Below, piece by piece: positions 2,971-59,015 of a stretch of 64,000 nucleotides of DNA. The stretch's first letter is position 1. Every line of letters begins with the position of its first letter. The DNA lies in the NCBI GenBank assembly GCA_037043015.1, contig CM073329.1:8262648-8326647 (forward strand). The letters run 5' to 3'. A program made the translations under genes and the position numbers. This stretch comes from Bryum argenteum (Eukaryota > Streptophyta > Bryopsida > Bryales > Bryaceae). Below the pieces are notes generated by a model that worked only from the letters and a program-made list of their open reading frames with translations, made no database searches and was not told the DNA's origin.

Positions 2971-3219
2971 GTGCGTTGGGTCGGGTTTTTCCTCTCTTTC
3001 CCTGCAAGTACCGTTGCAGTGACCTGTTGTCGTGGCCATTGGCCTTGCTCTTAGCTTGCCTTGCTTTTCCCACTATTCCATCCAGGTTCCATGCGGGGTA
3101 AGCCGAGCTCACAGAAACTTCACCCGAGAGTAAGGAGCACACAATCAAGTTTTCGTAAACCAAGCTCTTCTGAACCGAGCTCTCCTGAACCGAGCTCTCG
3201 TGAACCGGTTTGCAATACA

Positions 3220-4461
3220 ATGGTGAGCTGCTTCCACCCTCGTTGATACCGGATCATACAACTCGTGTGGTTGTATTGCTTGAGTGATCAATGTTTTGTG
3301 ATGCCGCTCTTGTTTGTGTAAGTTTATGATGCTTTTTCCATTGAAGTAACTCTTTGATGTTGTTTCGCTTGGATTGTGTAGGAGCCACACAATATAGGTC
3401 CTCAGCAGCAGCAGCAATTGTCAATTTTTAAGGTGGCCGCATGTTTTCACCTAACCGGGGTAGCCGCGGCAAGGGAGTTGGGTGTCTCACCAGAGACACT
3501 GATGTGGGCTTGCCGGCACTTTGGATTGAGGCGGTGGCCTGAAAAAGAGGTAGACCACGTCGTTCTTGAAATTCTTGCCTTGAGAACATTGAAAGTGATG
3601 ATTTCAATTCATATGCAATAAGGCAAAAATGTTTGGGTTTCCAGGTGAAGAAGTTTAATAGTAGCATGCGCCGCCTACATGCCATAGCTGTGGATGAAGA
3701 AGGAGCAGGCTGGGAGCTAGCGGCAGCTTATGTTGAGCACGTGATGGTGGAATTGGCCGGAAGTCTAACTCACCTGAGACACACAAGGGTAAGTAAACCA
3801 CCATTCTGAATACACGAGATTGTTTCTGAATTTCTCTTCACCCACTGTAGCGATTGATTACTTAGGTTGGGGAAACTGAGAAAGCTTTGCTTGCACTATG
3901 GCTATGGCAACCAGTTTTAGACTAGGTTGTTTTTCTCCAACCGAATCAGCCATTTTTGAAGTTAGCTTATTCTGCTCAAAAGTTTATAGTGCTCAGATGT
4001 TGATTCAGAGTCGGAGTTGCTCAAATGTTTACATTGTAATTTTTTACATTGCTTAAATGTTGATTCGTAGTCAAGTTTTTCAATGAAATATTTATTGATT
4101 TTGATTGAAATGTGCAGCGGCCGCAGCATTTGAGGATCAAAGACCTATTTCCATACTTTTCTCTCACTCTAACCGAAGCGGCGAGGAAGTTGCATGTCTC
4201 TCAATCGACTCTCAAAAAGGAATGTCGAGGGCTTGGGGTGAAGCGCTGGCCCGGTCGCAGTGTATGCATACTACAACACATTCAAGTCCTTTTGCTTTTT
4301 AACACATTGAATTCATTTTTGCAAATTGTACATGATCCTACCATTGTTTGATGTTGCAGGCGAGGTGCTTGGTGAGCAGAGTGGAAGAACTGCTGGATGC
4401 CATTGGAAGAGGAGGAGATGTGGAGGTTTATGACCTAACCCAACCGGTTGAAAGAGAATGA
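3220..4461 (+). CDS. Tandem double RWP-RK domain protein, copy A
   Basis: Probable DNA-binding nuclear protein of the RWP-RK family, whose members include NLP nitrate regulators and RKD egg/gamete regulators. Exons: 3220-3222 (ATG only), 3382-3549, 3645-3788, 4118-4261, 4360-4461, giving 186 residues with all junctions in frame. Residues about 16-57 carry a first RWP-RK unit (AAARELGVSPETL, then FGLRRWPEKE). Residues about 108-153 carry a second, more canonical one (DLFPYFSLTLTEAARKL, then LGVKRWPGRS). A helix-rich segment follows each unit. A poly-Gln stretch (QQQQQ) precedes the first unit. No NLP N-terminal or PB1 domain is present. The paralogue at 39446 has the same architecture. Start choice: the same ATG sits at the splice donor in copies A-D. 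Function is inferred from the domain only. Confidence 0.82.
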
Positions 4462-5576: not shown

Positions 5577-7863
5577 TGAAGCTTAGGTAATTTCTAGATA
5601 CGGGTTGACAAATTTAATGTCTTTAGCTCAAATTGTCCCAAGCTTGGTCTAATCTTTCATCTTGTCTATCTTGGAAGATACTCTGACATGATTGATTTGT
5701 TGCAAGTTGTTTCACCTTCTTGTTAGAGAAAATCTTTACTCAAAATTATATAAATTTCATTTTATCATGTAGTTAAGTATTTTAGAATTTGGAGGCACAT
5801 ATCAGAATTGCAATGGCAAAAATCATCCAACAACTTTGATTTTCATTAAAGTCAAGTGTCATGAAATCCTTAGAGAAAAATTGTTCACCGCAATTAGGTT
5901 TTGGCTGTTTGAGGCACTATGAACAAGTCAAACAATTTTTCTACTAGTAAAAGATTACCACTTCAAGACATGAATATTCAAAATTTCAAACTGAAACAAA
6001 TGTGATTTCATAAATGTGATCTTCAGATTTATAGCATGTACAACTTAAATCTGTGACTATTTTGGAAGAAACAAAAGTTTAAATATGTACTACTTAAATC
6101 AGTGACTAGAAAATACTAGAAGTTTAAATGCAATTGTTGTCAAAATTTGGCATAGGGTATCCCCTCAATTCATATGGCAAACTCCACAAATACACGGCAG
6201 TGACGGCACAAGTGAGATGATGAAATACAGTACACATAAAAAGCTGTTGTCCTAGATACCACTATGCATTTCTGGAACCAAAACATGTAAGTAACTGCAA
6301 GAAAGGCCAGGTTACAAAGGCGAAATGATCATCATATTGCGGATTCCACAAAGATGATCAATGTATTTCCAAAGTGTGATGATGAAGGAGCTATGGTACA
6401 CACAAAAAAAGAGAGAGAGCACGCAGCCGTCCCAAAGCAAAGATTAGATACCCATAACTACAGAAAAAGAAGAGAAGGTTCTGTTCGCTAACTAGTTGAA
6501 GAAGAGGCTTTGCTTCAGAGGGTAGGTACACAAATATCATCCGGGGCCAGCCTCAAGCTGTGCGACCACACCCTCGTATTCCTGCGCAGGAATGAGCTTT
6601 CGCTTGTGGTGCTTCTTCACAAAGCTCTTCCAAATGGCCTCCACATCGCCAGTGGTGACGAACTCCTTGCCTGCACCGTCCGAGTACCAGCCATCGTACG
6701 AGAATTTGTCACCTTCCCGATTGCGTCGCGACATGAACAATGCGAAGTAGGTGTTCTCCAGGTCCAGGAGTGTCAGATCTGTCAGCTTGTCAAAGGCGTA
6801 TTTCTTCCTCCTTTGCCATGCCTGCAGCAGCAGCAGCAGCAAACGTCCAAAAAGGCTAAGGAAAAATCGCCATGTACATCATAATCGGTAAGGCAAATAG
6901 CTCATCACTAGTTGGTTACAAAAGAGCTGCTTAGAAAGGATGATTTTCTGACTGAAATATACAAAAAGTTTCTAATTTGCCTTGCTTGAATGTGTTGTCA
7001 AAATCAGTTGATACGAGCTAAGAAACTAAGCCTGCGAGAAGATACATTATAATCAATTGCGAGAGACCTGTTTTTGGCTAAGAAACGGAAGGCTTTCTAC
7101 TGCAATAAGCTCATCATTAATCAGTTACAGAGAAGCTGCTCTTTGGCTGAGAGGGAGAACGGGTTTTTGCATAAGAAATGTATAGAGTTTCTTGTTTGCC
7201 ATGCCTGCATGTACTTGAGTCATAATCGGTTGCAAGAGACCTATTTCTGGCTAGAAAACGGGAGGCTTTCTCGTATGCTATGCCTGCAGAAAGATAAGAC
7301 TGAATCCGTTTACAGAAGCTATTTTCTGGCTGAGAGATGGGAGGCTTGCTGCTGCTTTGACATGACTGCGAAAAGGGTGAGTAAATGAATTGTTATTTAG
7401 CAGGAGCTATCTATGATGAGAAAAAGGGGTAGTATTCGCGCACCTTGTCTCCCAAGCGGCCTTCTCGTTTGGCCTTGTCCTTGAGCATGGCCCAGCGTTG
7501 GGCAACTCGAGCTTTGGTCTGGTCTCGCAAGTAAGCGCCACAGTGCACACACTGCAGCTTTGCGGAAGGGTTTTTGCTGTGGCCGCATTTCACACACCTG
7601 GTGTGTCCTCTGGAAGCTTTTCCCTGGTCTATACACGGCATGCTTCCTGCTACATCTTCGTCACTCTCTCCTTCCGGTGGTTGACTCCCATCATCTTTCG
7701 ACATCTGCAGCCCTGATAACACCAGAACAAACGCACATCAAAACCCCAAGCCAAGCCTATTCCAAAAATAGCGTGAGAAGAGCATAAGACTATTGATGTT
7801 TTCATAGGTCCGAACCAAGCAATCGGTACCTTGTGTTGCAGAACCATGAAGGAAGCCTACAAT
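5577..7863. repeat. Right copy of the ~2.2-kb duplication
   Basis: Matches 1-2231 closely over its whole length. The part from 5577 to about 6500 is non-coding and AT-rich, and the part from 6537 on is the 3' half of the intact zinc-ribbon gene. On the right the gene continues intact past 7863, so this is the ancestral arrangement at that boundary. The intron at 6822-7443 itself contains degenerate repeats of about 80-90 bp built on GGCTAAGAAACGG and CAGAGAAGCTGC motifs, present in both copies. Confidence 0.9.
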
Positions 7864-12067: not shown

Positions 12068-13544
12068 TTACCAATACGAAGAAGTAATTCTTCCTTTTAA
12101 GAAACTCTCGTACTGTGGCTCATTGACCAACTTCTTAAACAAAGCCCTGGTGGAGATACGCCACTTTCGACAAAGAGTGAAGATACCCGAGAATCTCAGC
12201 ATCCAAAACACTCTGCGCATCATATTCTTGTTGTCCACAATGGAGTAATACTGCATCAAACCTCGCATGATCTTCGTATACCGTCGCAGAATCTCCTCGG
12301 CTTCCAGATGAATCCAACCACTCATTCCCCGTGGAAACTCCGGGTTCACAGCAAAGCCCCGATCCACAAGCTTCGAAACAATCTCATTCACTGGCGCTTC
12401 CAGGACAATGCGGCCGATAGCACGCTCTGCTCTTTCCCCCACCAAGCTCTCCACATACTTCTTGTCTCTAGTTCCAATCAAAACTCCCAGAAACTTCACC
12501 TTCTTCGAAGCTAGGTGAGTGATCGTGATACTGTCATCGTCGATTTGGAGCTTCAAATTCCCGTTCAAGTATGAACTGATCCCGTCCCGAGTTTTCACTG
12601 CTAACGATTTCGGCCCGTCCACGCCTACTGCCCATTGATCACCATAGCGAATGTAATGTATCTCTAAAGAAGGATCTGGAGTTATCACAGGAGTAGATAT
12701 ACTCGAAGCGAAGTTACGAATATGAGCATCGAATTCACTCAAGTAAGCGTTCGTGAACAACGGCCAGAGTTTACCACCCTTAGAAACGCCCGTTATGTTA
12801 TGCCGCTCTTGTGAATCAGTTTTCAACAGACCTGCGTTCACGAGCTTCCAGTACAAGTCCAGGAGCTGCTGGTCTTTCACGGCTCGCATTATGATGTCCC
12901 CTAAGACTCTTTGATCTAAATTACGCAACAATCCGGTAGTGTTGGCAGTAATGAGCCACGTCGTGCCGGTCCAAGTGCGGATCCTTTGTAACGTTGCCTG
13001 CGCGGATCGCGATTTCGGAAAGACTGGCTCGAGAATTAACCTCAGGACCTCTTGAACGAGTTCCTCTGTAAGCGAAGGTGCTCCTACGGGTTTCCCATCT
13101 ATGTATTCGATCTCGTAAGGTTGAAATTGGAATGACCTATCTTTCATCTGCTGGATTACTTGCTGAATCGTGTCCTCGTCCAACGCCGCCTTGTGCTTCC
13201 ACTTCGCCTTTTTTCGCATATTGCGATAGGCAACTTCGTAAATTGTAGGGTCGAAAAACGTAGCGTATTTGCAGGCCCATGAGTTTGTGAAACTGGGTCT
13301 AGGCTTGCTCAATTCCCGATCAACCTGGTAGATCATACATCGATTGCATCATTGAGCTAAAACCCTAACCCTAACGTAAATTTTGTAGCCAAATTGTAAA
13401 AAAACGAACCTGTCGATGATCAAAGCTCCAATCGGACACCGTTGCGACGCTTCTGTAGAACACACCAGGCTCGCCGAATCTTGAGGTTCTCAAATCCTGA
13501 ACCTTGAACCCGAAGCTTAACTTTCGCAAACCAGCTCGCAACAT
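12068..13544 (-). CDS. Nuclear group II intron maturase-like protein, RT-degenerate
   Basis: Related to the reverse transcriptase/maturase proteins of group II introns. Plant nuclear members (nMAT type) are imported into mitochondria to help splice group II introns. Exon 1 (13410-13544) encodes a 45-residue Arg/Ser-rich presequence (MLRAGLRKLSFGFKVQ start) typical of mitochondrial targeting. Exon 2 (12068-13324) encodes the rest, 463 residues in all. RT signatures are visible: ITGVSKGGKLWPLFTNAYL (RT4 region), YIRYGDQWAVG (RT5), KVKFLGVLIG (RT7). A C-terminal maturase X-like segment has RGLMQYYSIVDN and SGIFTLCRKW. The catalytic YADD is YGDQ, and the PQG before it is SKG, so reverse transcription is probably lost while RNA binding may remain. 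No endonuclease domain is seen. It is shorter than Arabidopsis nMAT1/nMAT2. The transit exon and intron argue against a plain mitochondrial DNA insertion. Confidence 0.85.
13355..13376 (-). promoter_or_regulatory. Telobox-like TTAGGG repeats in intron
   Basis: The 85-bp intron of the maturase-like gene contains AAAACCCTAACCCTAA, two plant telomere-type units read on the minus strand. Such teloboxes are common near transcription starts of plant genes for translation and organelle functions. Similar motifs occur at about 28991-29007 (RING-CH intron 1) and about 56180 (upstream of the CRP1-like gene). Confidence 0.5.
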
Positions 13545-37129: not shown

Positions 37130-37375
37130 TTACTGTTTGAATGAGTTTCTTCCTACACTTTTAGTTAGAATAATTTTTTCGATATTGTTTTCGCTTGAAT
37201 GTGTAGGAGCCACATATAGTAGTTGCTCAATGTCAAATATGTCTCGAATATTTTCACCGGTGGGGTAAGCGGCGATGAAGAAGTTGGTTGTCTCCGTAGA
37301 CACACTCATGAGGGCTTGCCGGCAGCTGGGTTTAGGTGTTGGCTTGCACAAATGGTATACACCGGATCCTTCCTA
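37130..37375 (+). pseudogene. Decayed RWP-RK relic (F)
   Basis: Carries the GAATGTGTAG|GAGCCACA acceptor context of exon 2 of the double-RWP-RK genes. Recognisable but broken downstream words follow: GTTGGTTGTCTCCGTAGACA and ATGAGGGCTTGCCGGCA. Frameshifts and the loss of a clean RWP codon run make it non-coding. It sits 2 kb upstream of intact copy B, as relic E does upstream of copy D. Confidence 0.65.
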
Positions 37376-39445: not shown

Positions 39446-40892
39446 ATGGTGAGCTGCTTCAACCCCTTGATCATATGAGATCATGCAACTCGTGTGCTTG
39501 TATTGCTTGAGTGATCAAAGTTTGTGATGCTACTCTTGTTTGAGTTAGTTTTGTGATGCATTTGCCGCGGGAATGAGCCTTTGATGTTGTTTCGGATGGA
39601 TTGTGTAGGCGCCTCAGCAACAACAGTTAACAATTGCGAGGGTGGCGGCATGTTTTCGCCTGACTGAGGTAGCCGCAGCAAGGGAGTTGGGTGTCTCACT
39701 GGAGACACTGAAGAGGGCTTGCTGGCACTTTGGATTGAGGCACTGGCCTGTACGAGAGGTACACCATATCCTTGCGGGTTTTGTGATGTCGTTGTAGTCT
39801 AAGTCGAATTCAGGGTCTGAATTCAAGGTCTGTAATTTGTCAAACATGGAGAGAGAGAATTTTGAATTGGCTTTGTGAAGCCGAAATGGTAGAGAGAGTA
39901 TGTTGGTGGAAGAGCCAAATTGTTGTGAGTGTTGAGTTGACAGCCAATTCGGTTGAGAGTGCTACAATGTTGAGCGTACGGAGTAGGATAATTTGCCTGT
40001 GGTTGAGAAAGGAGAGTTCAGGTTGTAGAGTGAAACCCGGATAGGGATTGGAGTGAAAATTGTAATTCTTCCCTTGATTTCAATTCCTATGCAACAAGGC
40101 GAGAATATTTAAATGTGTGTGTAGGCTAGGAAAGTAAAGAGTTGTATGCGCGGCCTACAAGCTATAGCCGTGGATGTAGAAGGAGCTGGCCGAGAGCTTG
40201 CGGCAATTTATTTGCAGCATGTGATGGCAGAATTGGACAAAAGTCCAACTCCCGTGAGACACACAAGGGTAAGTAACCCAACATTGTGAATTTTCGAACC
40301 TGTCATCACTGTTTGTAGCGATTGAATACTTAGTTTGGGCACAATGCAAGAAAGCTTTGCTCGCACTATGACTATGGCAACCAGTTTCTAGACTTCAGTG
40401 TTTATCTTCAACCAAATCAACCATTTCTTTTTGAAGTCAGCTTACACTGCTCAAATTTTTACATTGCAATTATTTACATTGGTCAAATGTTGATTTGTAG
40501 TTGAGTTTTCCAATGAAATATTCATTGATTTCGGTTAGAATGTGCAGCGGCCTCAGCATTTGAGGATCACGGATCTGTTCCCTTACTTTTCTCTCACTCT
40601 GACCGAAGCGGCGAGGGAGCTGCATGTCTCGCAGTCGACTCTCAAGAAGGAATGTCGAGGGCTCGGGGTGAAGCGCTGGCCCGGTCGCAGTGTATGCATA
40701 CTACAACACATTCAAGTCCTTTTGCTTTTTAACACATTGAATTCATTTTTGCAAATTGTACATGATCCGATCATTGTTTGATGTTTGCAGGCGAGGTGCT
40801 TGGTGAGCAGAGTGGAAGAACTGCTGGATGCCATTGGAAGAGGAGGAGATGTGGAGGTTTATGACCTAACCCAACCGGGTGAAAGAGAATGA
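39446..40892 (+). CDS. Tandem double RWP-RK domain protein, copy B
   Basis: Second intact member of the family. Exons: 39446-39448 (ATG only), 39609-39758, 40125-40268, 40548-40691, 40791-40892, giving 180 residues in frame. The first unit reads VAAARELGVSLETLKRACWH and FGLRHWPVRE. The second reads DLFPYFSLTLTEAARELHVS and LGVKRWPGRS. The C-terminal exon (starting ARCLVSRVEELLDAI) is nearly identical to that of copy A. An in-frame TAG lies 18 bases upstream of the ATG, which supports the start. The intron after exon 2 carries about 290 extra bases (about 39773-40065) absent from A and C, possibly a transposon fragment. The 3' flank to about 41795 matches unit A. Expected to be a nuclear DNA-binding protein; targets unknown. 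Confidence 0.82.
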
Positions 40893-45634: not shown

Positions 45635-46902
<1,268 letters not shown>

Positions 46903-48492: not shown

Positions 48493-48832
48493 CAATGGTC
48501 TGGTGCTTTGACCCCATGATCTCTCATTGCTAGATCATGCAATTCCCAGATCATGCAACTCGTGTGGCTTTATTCCTCGAGTGATCAACTTTGGTGACGT
48601 TGTTAGCGTTTGAATGAGTTTCGTGATACACTTTTGGTTAGAATGAATTTTTCGATGTTAATTCCGTTGGAATGTGTAGGAGCGACATGTGGTAGTTGCT
48701 CAACAACACTTGTGGGTGTCAAATTTGTTAGAATATTTGCACCTAAGTGGGGTAAGAAGTTGGATGTCTCCGTAGACACCCTCATGAGGGCTTGGTGGCA
48801 GTTTGGTTGAGGCGCTTGTTTGCATGAGAGGT
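48493..48832 (+). pseudogene. Decayed RWP-RK relic (E)
   Basis: Keeps the leader-like CGCAATGGT start context, the GAATGTGTAG|GAG acceptor and broken exon 2 words (TTGGATGTCTCCGTAGACAC, ATGAGGGCTTGGTGGCA). The RWP codons are lost (TTGAGGCGCTTGTTTGCA followed by TGA). Exons 3-5 are absent. Confidence 0.65.
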
Positions 48833-50848: not shown

Positions 50849-51159
50849 ATGGTGAGCCCCTTCAACTCCTCGATGATATGAGAGCATGTAACTTGTGTGA
50901 ATTTATTCTTTGAGTGATCAATTTTTGTGATGTTGCTCTTGTTTGAATAAGTTTTGTGATCATTTGTCATTAGAATGAGCTCTTTGATGTTTTTTCGGTT
51001 AAATTATGTAGGAGCCACGTAGAATAGGTGCTCAGCAGCAGTTGACAATTTTGAAGGTGGCGGCATGTTTTCACATGACTAAGGTAGCCACGGCAAGGGA
51101 GTTGGGTGTCTCACTGATGAGGGCTTGCCGGCAGTTTGGATTGAGGCGCTGGCCTGCAC
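50849..51159 (+). pseudogene. 5' fragment of RWP-RK gene (D)
   Basis: The ATG (50849-50851) lies at the splice donor as in A and B. Exon 2 begins at 51012 and reads in frame through AARELGVS-like and FGLRRWP sequence (here VATARELGVS, FGLRRWPA), with a small in-frame deletion before MRACRQ. Right after RWPA it runs into the 5' flank of copy C (TATTACTCATATAATGAATC). Exons 3-5 are missing, so at most a single half-domain could be made. Confidence 0.75.
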
Positions 51160-51416: not shown

Positions 51417-51987
51417 ATGGTGAGCTGCTTCAACCCCTCGTTGATATAGAATCGTACAACTCATGTGGTTGTATTGCTTGAGTAATCAGTGTTTTGTGAT
51501 GCTACTCTTGTTTGAGTAAGTTTTGAGATGCTTTTTCCATTGAATTAACTCTTTGATGTTGTTTTGCTTGGTTTGTCAGGGGGCCACACAATATAGGTGC
51601 TCAACAGCAGCAACTGACAATTTTGAAGGTGGCGGCATGTTTTCACCTAACCGGGGTAGCCGCGGCAAGGGAGTTGGGTGTCTTACTGGAGACACAGATG
51701 AGGGCTTGCCGACACTTTGGATTGAGGCGCTGACCTGCACGAGAGGTAGACCACATCCTTCTTGGAATTCTTGCCTTAAGGACATTAAAGGTGATAATTT
51801 GAATTCTTATGCAATAAGGCAAGAATACTTGTGTGTCCAGGTGAGAAAGGTGAAGAATAGTATGTGCCGCCTACAAGCCATGATAGTTGTGGATGAAGAA
51901 GGAGGAGGTCGGGAGCTAGCGGCAACTTACGTGCAGCAGGTGATGGTGGAATTGGACAGAAGTCCAACTAACGTGAGACACACAAGG
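51417..51987 (+). pseudogene. RWP-RK gene copy C, inactivated
   Basis: The ATG-at-donor is kept (51417-51419). Exon 2 starts after CAG at 51577, where an extra base (GGGGCC against GAGCC) shifts the frame. The Trp codon of RWP is TGA (GGCGCTGACCTGC). Exon 3 (about 51841-51987) is intact in sequence. Exons 4 and 5 are gone: the following intron runs into a long (TA)n tract. Three independent lesions make it a pseudogene. Confidence 0.85.
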
Positions 51988-56088: not shown

Positions 56089-56300
56089 CGATTCCGAATC
56101 GCAACTCCGCTTTTCGCTGGAATCGCAAGCCTCATTTCGATGGTCCACAAGCTGCACTTTTTCTGAGCTTTTTTCTGAGGTTTAGGGTTTATCAATGGAC
56201 TCCAATTCGATACAATGGCTGAGGAACGAAAGCCAGGGCTACTGGAATGGACCAGGAACAGGCAAATTTGAGTGATGGTGTTGAGTAATTGAATAGCGCT

Positions 56301-59015
56301 ATGGCGGTCTATGACCTCTCTATGATTGGGCTGGGATACAGGGAGGCCGCGTTTTTGCCAATCTCTTTGAGCAAGAGCATTCCCTGCAATCCTCACCGGA
56401 GTGTGAAATGGAGGGGGACAGTAGTAGCGCGCTTTCAGAGCGCGAAGCCAAGCAATGTAACGAAACCGATGCCTTCAATAGCGCCAGCAATCGTTCCGCT
56501 TGTGGAGTCACTAGAGAGTGAGAAAGAATTTGAGGAGGACGTGACGGTTGCTATCTTGCGCAATTTGCCATTTCCCGAGTGGCGGGGGACGTTCGTGAAG
56601 CTCTGCTCGTCGCGGCGGTCGGTTACTGCGAAGAAATTGCTGACTCTATTGCGAACGCGTGAAATTTGCGGTGCGGAGTCGATGGATTTGTTATATGCTA
56701 TTGTGATAACAGGATTAGGTAGACAGAGTAGGTCGGAGGATGCAATGACTTTGTTTCAGCAGCTTATGCAGCCGGGACCGATGGCGTTCAACGCGATAGT
56801 GGCCGTGTGCGCGCGGGAAAGTCAGTATGAAGAAGCGATTGAGTTTTTGAAGCGGATGCGGGGCGCGGGGTACCAGCCCGACAACATGAGCTACTCGCTC
56901 GTGTTTCAAGCGTGCGCGAGAAAACGCGCGGGCTCGGAGGTGATTTCAAGTGTTTGCGCGGATATTAAGCGGGAAGGCTTGGAAATGGACAGTAAACTGT
57001 ATAATGACGTGATTGCTGCGTATTGTTTCGCGGGCGAGGTGGATATGGCTTTACATTATGTAGAGTTGATGCAAGCATGCGATTTGTCTCCAGACACTCG
57101 AAGCTATGGTGCGTTGATTGAGCGGCTCGTTGCGGATCGAAGAATTGATGATGCTGAGGGAATGTACGCTGAAATGAAGAGCAAGTCGGTGAAGGTTAGT
57201 CTTAGAGCTGTGAATGCGCTTCTTACTGCGTACACTAGGCATAGCATGTTGGAGCAAGTGGAGATTTTGTTGCAGGATGCGCAAGAGGCGGGGTTGAACT
57301 TGACAACATTTAGTTACAGTTTACTTATTGATGCTTATTCAAGAGCAGGTAGGTTGGAACAAGCAAAAGCGATGTTTCAAACTATGAAAGATGCAAACGT
57401 GCTAGCGAATGCGTTTATCTACTCTCGACTTATGGTAGCATATCGAAATGCAAGGCAATGGGATGGTGCTATTCGGGTTCTCAAAGACATGTATGCTTCG
57501 TATGTGAAGCCTAACCAGTATATTTTCAACATTCTTATTGATACGTATGGGAAATTTGGGCGATTGCCTCAAGCAATGCGCACGTTTGCGCAGATGAGCA
57601 AGGAGGGCTTTGAACCGGACGTTGTAACTTGGAATTCTTTGATTGAGGCTCATTGTCGAGCTTCTTTACTATCTGAAGCACTTGGTTTGTTAAAAGAGAT
57701 GGAAGAACGAGGTTGCACTCCTTCAGTACACACTTACAATATCATTCTTAATGCGCTTGGGTGGAACCGTAAGTGGAAGGAGATGGCTAGATTGCTTGAT
57801 GAGATGCAATCTAAAGGCCTCAACCCGAACGAAGTTACGTATACGACTCTTGTTGATATTTATGGGACATCTAGACGATACAAAGAAGCTTCAGACTTTT
57901 TGAACCAAATGAAAGAAGAAGGACTACAACCTACTACGAGTGTGTATTGTGCTTTAGCTAATGCTTATGCTAAGCAGGTAAGCATTCACTTTCATCTTTC
58001 TTGTCATCATGTATATTTTAGACCTATTCTCACATTTGATCTTGTGTAGAAAGCTTAATCAAGCTTCGTGTATTGCAGGGCTTATGTGAGCAAGCAATGG
58101 AAGTTTTCAGGAGTATGGAGAAGGATGGAGTTGAACTGAACCTTTCGATGCTCAATCTCTTGATCAATGCATTCGGAGTTGCGGGAAGACATATTGAAGC
58201 CTTCTCGGTGTTTGATTACATCTTAGAAGTTGTAAGTCTCATTTATATGACTATCGTGGAATCTCTATTGCTCCAGGGCGTTATTTGCAGCTCTTGTAAA
58301 ATGTGGTGCCACTTGTTTCGAGAGCTTGTGTCTGCTTTGTCTTTGCAGAGGTTGGTCTATTGGATTGCGGAGTATTTCGGAGTATTTGTTATGCTGATTT
58401 CTTACCATCGTGGTTTTATCGTGGTTTTGATGTGAAGGGAATGAGTCCCGACGTGGTTACATATACTACATTGATGAAAGCGTTGATAAAAGCAGAGCAA
58501 CTTGATCAGGTTAGCTACCTGCATCTCTTTCTTCCTGTTGTTTTTCTTGATGCCAAATAATGACATGCGACTTTCGGAAGCAGGAAATCTATCTGTCTAG
58601 CGATACTCTTCTTATCTTTAACTTAAAACTGCAAAGAATGTCATGTTCCTTCTTCAAGCTCTTCTATCCTATTTCTCAGGTGTTATGTGTAGTATGTGTA
58701 AAATGGCAAGTGGGGTACTTACAAGTTTGTTCGCTACAAAGTTTATCGGCATGAAAGCAACATCGATTTTGAACTGTGCAGTGACTCTTTGTTTTGTTTC
58801 GTTAACTGCAGGTTCCACAGGTTTTTGAACGAATGATAGCAGCTGGTTTGACACCTGACGACATGGCCAAAGACATGCTTCGAAGTGCTCAGCGGTTCAA
58901 AGTAAGAGGCGCAAAGCTCACGAAGAAGGAATTATACCAAGCCAAGAAGGATTTAGAATCAAGATACTCAGAATGGGTGGACTTTCAAGCAGGAGGATAC
59001 ACCTCAAATTCATAG
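56301..59015 (+). CDS. CRP1: CRP1-like chloroplast pentatricopeptide repeat protein
   Basis: PPR protein matching CRP1, which in maize and Arabidopsis binds plastid RNAs and is needed for petB/petD processing and for petA and psaC translation. Four exons join in frame: 56301-57977, 58079-58231, 58438-58509, 58812-59015, giving 701 residues. The N-terminal ~75 residues look like a plastid transit peptide (Arg/Ser-rich, few acidic). P-class 35-residue repeats fill about residues 150-640, with typical PDVVTWNSLI, SVHTYNIILNALG and NEVTYTTLVDIYG strings. The segments RGCTPSVHTYN and SPDVVTYTTLMKALIKAEQ, and the end AKDMLRSAQRF, line up with CRP1. A ~30-residue basic tail follows. No DYW or E domain. 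The first ATG after an in-frame TAG was chosen. A telobox lies about 120 bp upstream. Confidence 0.9.

Follow-up and report, generated by a model that had tools for sequence, protein, structure and literature searches.

The 64,000-nucleotide window of Bryum argenteum DNA analyzed here (C9:8262648-8326647 of a 258.8-Mb assembly in 25 contigs) contains two genes, which we refer to as A and B, each predicted to encode a small protein with two RWP-RK domains in tandem. Gene A (3220-4461, forward strand) has five exons separated by four GT-AG introns, all in phase 0, and encodes 186 residues; the original prediction of five in-frame exons and a protein of this length is borne out in both position and frame. 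The coding part of exon 1 is just the start codon (3220-3222) with a GT donor directly after it, and is followed by exon 2 (3382-3549), which carries the core of the first domain (D1), RWPEKE at its end, and a phase-0 donor. Exon 3 (3645-3788) encodes a linker of 48 residues after D1, exon 4 (4118-4261) the core of the second domain (D2) with RWPGRS at its end and again a phase-0 donor, and exon 5 (4360-4461) the C-terminal tail and stop codon. The tail is acidic, with 8 acidic and 4 basic residues. Gene B (39446-40892, forward strand) is a paralogue of 180 residues, whose five exons lie at 39446-39448 (the start codon), 39609-39758 (the D1 core, reading RHWPVRE), 40125-40268 (linker), 40548-40691 (the D2 core), and 40791-40892 (tail and stop codon).

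When the gene A domains are scored separately, each with its following exon, D1 matches the Pfam RWP-RK profile (PF02042) at 42.7 bits and D2 at 60.7 bits, and the corresponding scores in gene B are 43.9 and 59.5 bits; all four exceed the curated cut-off of 29.3 bits. Two RWP-RK domains per protein had been predicted, together with a paralogue of equal layout at 39446, and both claims hold by this profile test. No Pfam family other than RWP-RK exceeds its cut-off in gene A, so it has no PB1 or nitrate-response domain, as expected of a protein proposed to have no further domain. The likeness of D1 and D2 to each other is above chance, because a D1 profile detects D2 of gene A at 31.4 bits and a D2 profile detects D1 at 28.7 bits, and because the resemblance between exons 2 and 4 is greater than in 2000 of 2000 shuffles in gene A and likewise in gene B. 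Neither domain contains a strict RWPxRK hexapeptide, with D1 reading RWPEKE or HWPVRE and D2 reading RWPGRS.

The window also holds two broken copies on the forward strand, C (50849-51158; exons 1 and 2 only, with a gap inside D1) and D (51417-51987; exons 1 to 3 only, with a stop inside D1). The start codon and adjoining GT donor are common to copies A, B, C, and D, and position 3220 is the better-supported start of gene A. An in-frame ATG upstream at 3091 would give a product of 229 residues, and copy D retains an in-frame upstream ATG; as the main start of gene A, position 3091 is rejected on account of gene B, where a stop sits five codons ahead of the ATG. Reading the exon-4 frame backwards in A and B gives three residues (NVQ) before the previous in-frame stop, with no ATG among them. 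Lacking an ATG to start from, the D2 exon has to be joined by splicing to one upstream, and the donor of exon 3 and acceptor of exon 4 are in phase in all four intact copies of the family (A, B, and two others described below). We thus infer that D1 and D2 are joined in one protein by splicing.

Two D1-like relics lie elsewhere in the window, both on the forward strand: one containing a stop (37230-37334) and one that is short (48754-48807). Just outside the window are L049 (C9:8246200) and L050 (C9:8260100), which are open across all five exons. Matches to D1, linker, D2, and tail, each searched separately, were grouped. Every linker match (11) and every tail match (8) was kept, along with the D1 matches of at least 53% identity plus one of 43% on C11 beside linker and D2 matches, and the D2 matches of at least 61% identity. 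The rows dropped are mostly other RWP-RK genes. Where a match was split, it was counted once, leaving aside the second fragment at C9:13501197 and C10:15849801 for D2 and at C9:15847841 for D1. Thirteen of the resulting 21 groups hold D1 followed by D2. Four of these pairs are intact, all of them within 60 kb at C9:8.246-8.304 Mb, and nine are broken or incomplete; a stop is listed within D1, the linker, or D2 for eight of the nine, and the ninth (C9:8632014-8634356) is left with partial domains and lacks a tail match. Profile scans of viral, bacterial, and archaeal contig collections and a viral motif scan revealed no relatives, a result that is uninformative for other plants.

The RWP-RK matches in this genome, many of them clustered, amount to a very large family expansion. 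There are at least 133 matches to PF02042 at E ≤1e-3 on ten contigs, of which 129 exceed the cut-off, the total being a lower bound from scoring 150 of 182 candidates; none of the 14 control genomes yielded a PF02042 match. Ten pairs of neighbouring matches lie no more than 3 kb apart, each pair on the same strand. The loci surveyed (46 fetched by place and eight from the search) are densest on C1 to C4, and the fetched loci and the window, with three duplicate loci excluded, gave 70 domain hits with our own profile. Among the 61 hits that reach the domain end, 53 have a GT directly after the codon of RWPxRK position 6, the site of the intron in A and B; this GT is read as sequence only and is a putative donor in each locus. 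The eight exceptions are L009, presumably RKD-like by its motif, L011 and L026, presumably NLP-like by theirs, four of the broken tandem copies, and the second of the two L051 domains. Because they have this GT site in common, D1 and D2 are both probably derived from the expanded family. L051 (C4:21262300-21264300) is itself a close same-strand pair, belonging to another RWP-RK subfamily, and its second domain looks degenerate.

In a tree built from 43 columns, D1 (11 rows, support 98/97) and D2 (4 rows, support 100/100) form separate clades; the deep forks do not resolve, and no named RKD is among the rows. Approximately unbiased tests gave p 0.31 for a joint clade of D1 and D2, which is thereby neither favoured nor rejected, p 0.39 for D2 with sequences of the L004 type, and p 0.20 for D1 with the L004 type. 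L004 (C9:8345948) and L006 (C9:8360688), respectively, are the best-scoring matches outside the tandem family, with 60% and 59% identity to D2 and 51% and 47% identity to D1, and each shows one domain within its 3.1 kb of retrieved sequence. Like D2, they have RPQ upstream of the domain and end in KRWPGR or KCWPGR. Both are on the contig of gene B, some 42 and 57 kb past it, and this proximity of the best outside matches suggests a local origin of the tandem gene through duplication or fusion. The similarity of exon 2 to exon 4 extends over its full length, but exons 3 and 5 are not detectably related, their likeness being no better than that of shuffles, which does not demonstrate that an exon pair was duplicated as a whole. 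The present arrangement may have arisen either by internal duplication or by the fusion of two adjoining genes.

Comparison of A with B shows that D2 is under purifying selection between the two genes and that D1 is looser, as judged from coding changes. Synonymous and non-synonymous changes, respectively, number 12 and 2 in exon 4 (Fisher p 7.6e-7), 11.7 and 15.3 in exon 2 (p 0.010), 11 and 21 in exon 3 (p 0.097), and 0 and 1 in exon 5, with the Fisher tests using rounded counts. All of the exon-4 differences fall before approximately 4235; from there to approximately 4590 in A, and from 40665 to approximately 41020 in B, the genes are near-identical (56-60 of 60 per step). Intron 4 is 98% identical between them, as against 72-83% for introns 1 to 3. 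Because this near-identity runs from about 4235 through the tail and includes intron 4, the shared 3' end is probably a recent gene-conversion tract.

The two domains also differ in their third helix. Residues were aligned for 48 of the 70 domain hits (nearly full length, without a stop, and scoring at least 45 bits), and in the 33 sequences that are neither D1 nor D2, lysine is the commonest residue at columns 29 and 30 (26/33 and 19/33, respectively). In the intact genes D2 has KK at these columns in all four, and D1 has MW in three and KR in one. An AlphaFold2 model of the D1 exon, the one domain for which a structure was predicted, has three helices and places columns 29 and 30 within the third, the helix that may read DNA by analogy with the helix-turn-helix fold. 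These features suggest that D1 and D2 form an unequal pair.

RWP-RK factors are described as governing nitrate response and germ-cell fate, and in the literature searched double RWP-RK proteins are PB1-bearing NLPs only. The original prediction that plant RWP-RK proteins carry one domain is too strong, because published work reports peanut NLPs (PMC7474775) and tomato SlNLP5 (PMC8299697) with two RWP-RK domains, together with one or two PB1 domains each. The tandem genes resemble these in that a single annotated protein contains a pair of RWP-RK domains, but gene A differs in being only 186 residues long and in lacking the C-terminal PB1 that is expected of an NLP. They resemble RKD proteins in having RWP-RK and neither PB1 nor another recognised domain, but have two domains per chain (in A and B and, by profile, in L049 and L050) where RKDs have one, and their hexapeptides, RWPEKE and RWPGRS, are degenerate. 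The tandem genes have a GT donor adjoining the hexapeptide codon, and L009, presumably RKD-like, does not. Peanut RKDs are described with a single RWP-RK domain (PMC7474775), as are the RWP-RK proteins of the chlorophytes surveyed (PMC5601483), and positions 1 and 6 of RWPxRK are reported to be less conserved in oomycetes (PMC7399023). Cassava RKD1, 2, 3, and 6 are listed with two RWP-RK motifs (PMC10454212), although these come from motif discovery and could be pieces of a single domain. A small stand-alone protein with two RWP-RK domains was not found in the literature searched, which does not establish that it is new.

We put at about even odds that the tandem genes encode a two-headed DNA-binding regulator in which D2 is the main reader and D1 a diverged partner in cis. 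Under this proposal a locally amplified gene would give a short protein with two RWP-RK heads separated by the 48-residue linker exon. The role of chief DNA reader would fall to D2 on two grounds, the conservation of its sequence between A and B and its retention of the third-helix lysine pair, and D1 would act in cis like a dimer partner, tuning the choice of site or partner. Because no PB1 or other recognised domain is present, the protein would probably not activate genes alone, and would instead modulate single-domain RKD-type factors, or compete with them, where they bind. Such a chain could serve as a single-chain dimer or as a competitor, the two roles suggested in the original prediction. 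Several observations weigh against this proposal. D2 of L050 reads RWA rather than RWP, and when A, L049, and L050 are compared pairwise, non-synonymous changes number 0-1 in the D1 core and 3-4 in D2; because these three keep D1 conserved, the divergence of D1 is a matter of B versus the other three and not a steady trend. Exon 5 has 0 synonymous and 1-4 non-synonymous changes per pair in the same trio, which may mean a tail free of constraint or one converted not long ago. The fold matches fall below the noise level of the search tool itself.

That the protein is purely a competitor, resembling a microprotein that occupies the sites or partners of RKD-type factors with neither head having a target set of its own, is a less probable but credible reading. 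It would account for the absence of any other domain above cut-off, for the lack of the common third-helix basic pair in D1 of three of the four intact copies, and for a length of 186 residues with an acidic exon-5 tail, but D2 is strongly constrained between the two window genes, which fits direct DNA reading equally well. We regard it as unlikely that the family is simply decaying, the four open copies being recent duplicates that are still unbroken and not maintained. The nine broken or incomplete pairs, the relics within the window, and the changes in exons 3 and 5 of A, L049, and L050, where non-synonymous equal or outnumber synonymous ones, all point that way; however, exons 2 to 4 are open in both A and B, an outcome that a substitution-only neutral simulation at 17% divergence yields in 5-6% of runs, and the synonymous excess in exons 4 and 2 needs selection.

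A splice toggle seems still more doubtful. Skipping exons 2 and 3 would leave a D2-only product and retaining intron 3 a D1-only product, their ratio being regulatory; every intron is in phase 0 in four copies, and in A and B read-through past the donor of intron 3 meets a stop six codons on, giving a D1-only protein. However, phase-0 introns are common and may merely reflect the mode of exon duplication. It is very improbable that two single-domain genes lying head to tail have been joined wrongly, even though D1 and D2 each have their own supported clade and eight of the 21 groups do not hold both domains in order. The order of D1 then D2 is kept in the remaining 13, the exon-3 donor and exon-4 acceptor agree in phase in every intact copy, and D2, having no start codon of its own and no ATG after the last upstream stop in A or B, makes separate messenger RNAs a weak alternative.

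If the unequal-headed single chain is real, it would provide a tractable object for studying RWP-RK pairing and the residues that read DNA. How RWP-RK domains pair on DNA seems poorly known, since sequence searches of solved structures returned no RWP-RK entry. The surrounding expansion is in itself a striking case of transcription-factor amplification. It is conceivable, and we advance it with considerable doubt, that this lineage amplified RWP-RK to more than 100 exon copies and built an obligate heterodimer in cis, with one head that still reads DNA and another that has abandoned this to serve as a partner or decoy surface. Local duplication, conversion, and decay would then drive its rapid turnover, which is what a regulator under reproductive or gametophytic conflict should show.

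Gene A is flanked by two reverse-strand gene copies (900-2072 and 6540-7704) within a 97%-identical repeat. The repeated gene apparently has two exons and a CxxC...CxxC zinc-ribbon-like N-terminal part, and the first copy is frameshifted near 992-1022. An open frame at 12068-13348 (reverse strand) matches type II intron maturase at 80.1 bits and, weakly, reverse transcriptase; it is of organelle type and may be either a nuclear gene or an organelle insert. At the gathering threshold the window has a single Rfam match, a 5S ribosomal RNA gene (45637-45755, forward strand; 98.2 bits). Further downstream, at 56289-58049 on the forward strand, a pentatricopeptide-repeat gene with nine PPR_2 stretches occupies one long open frame.
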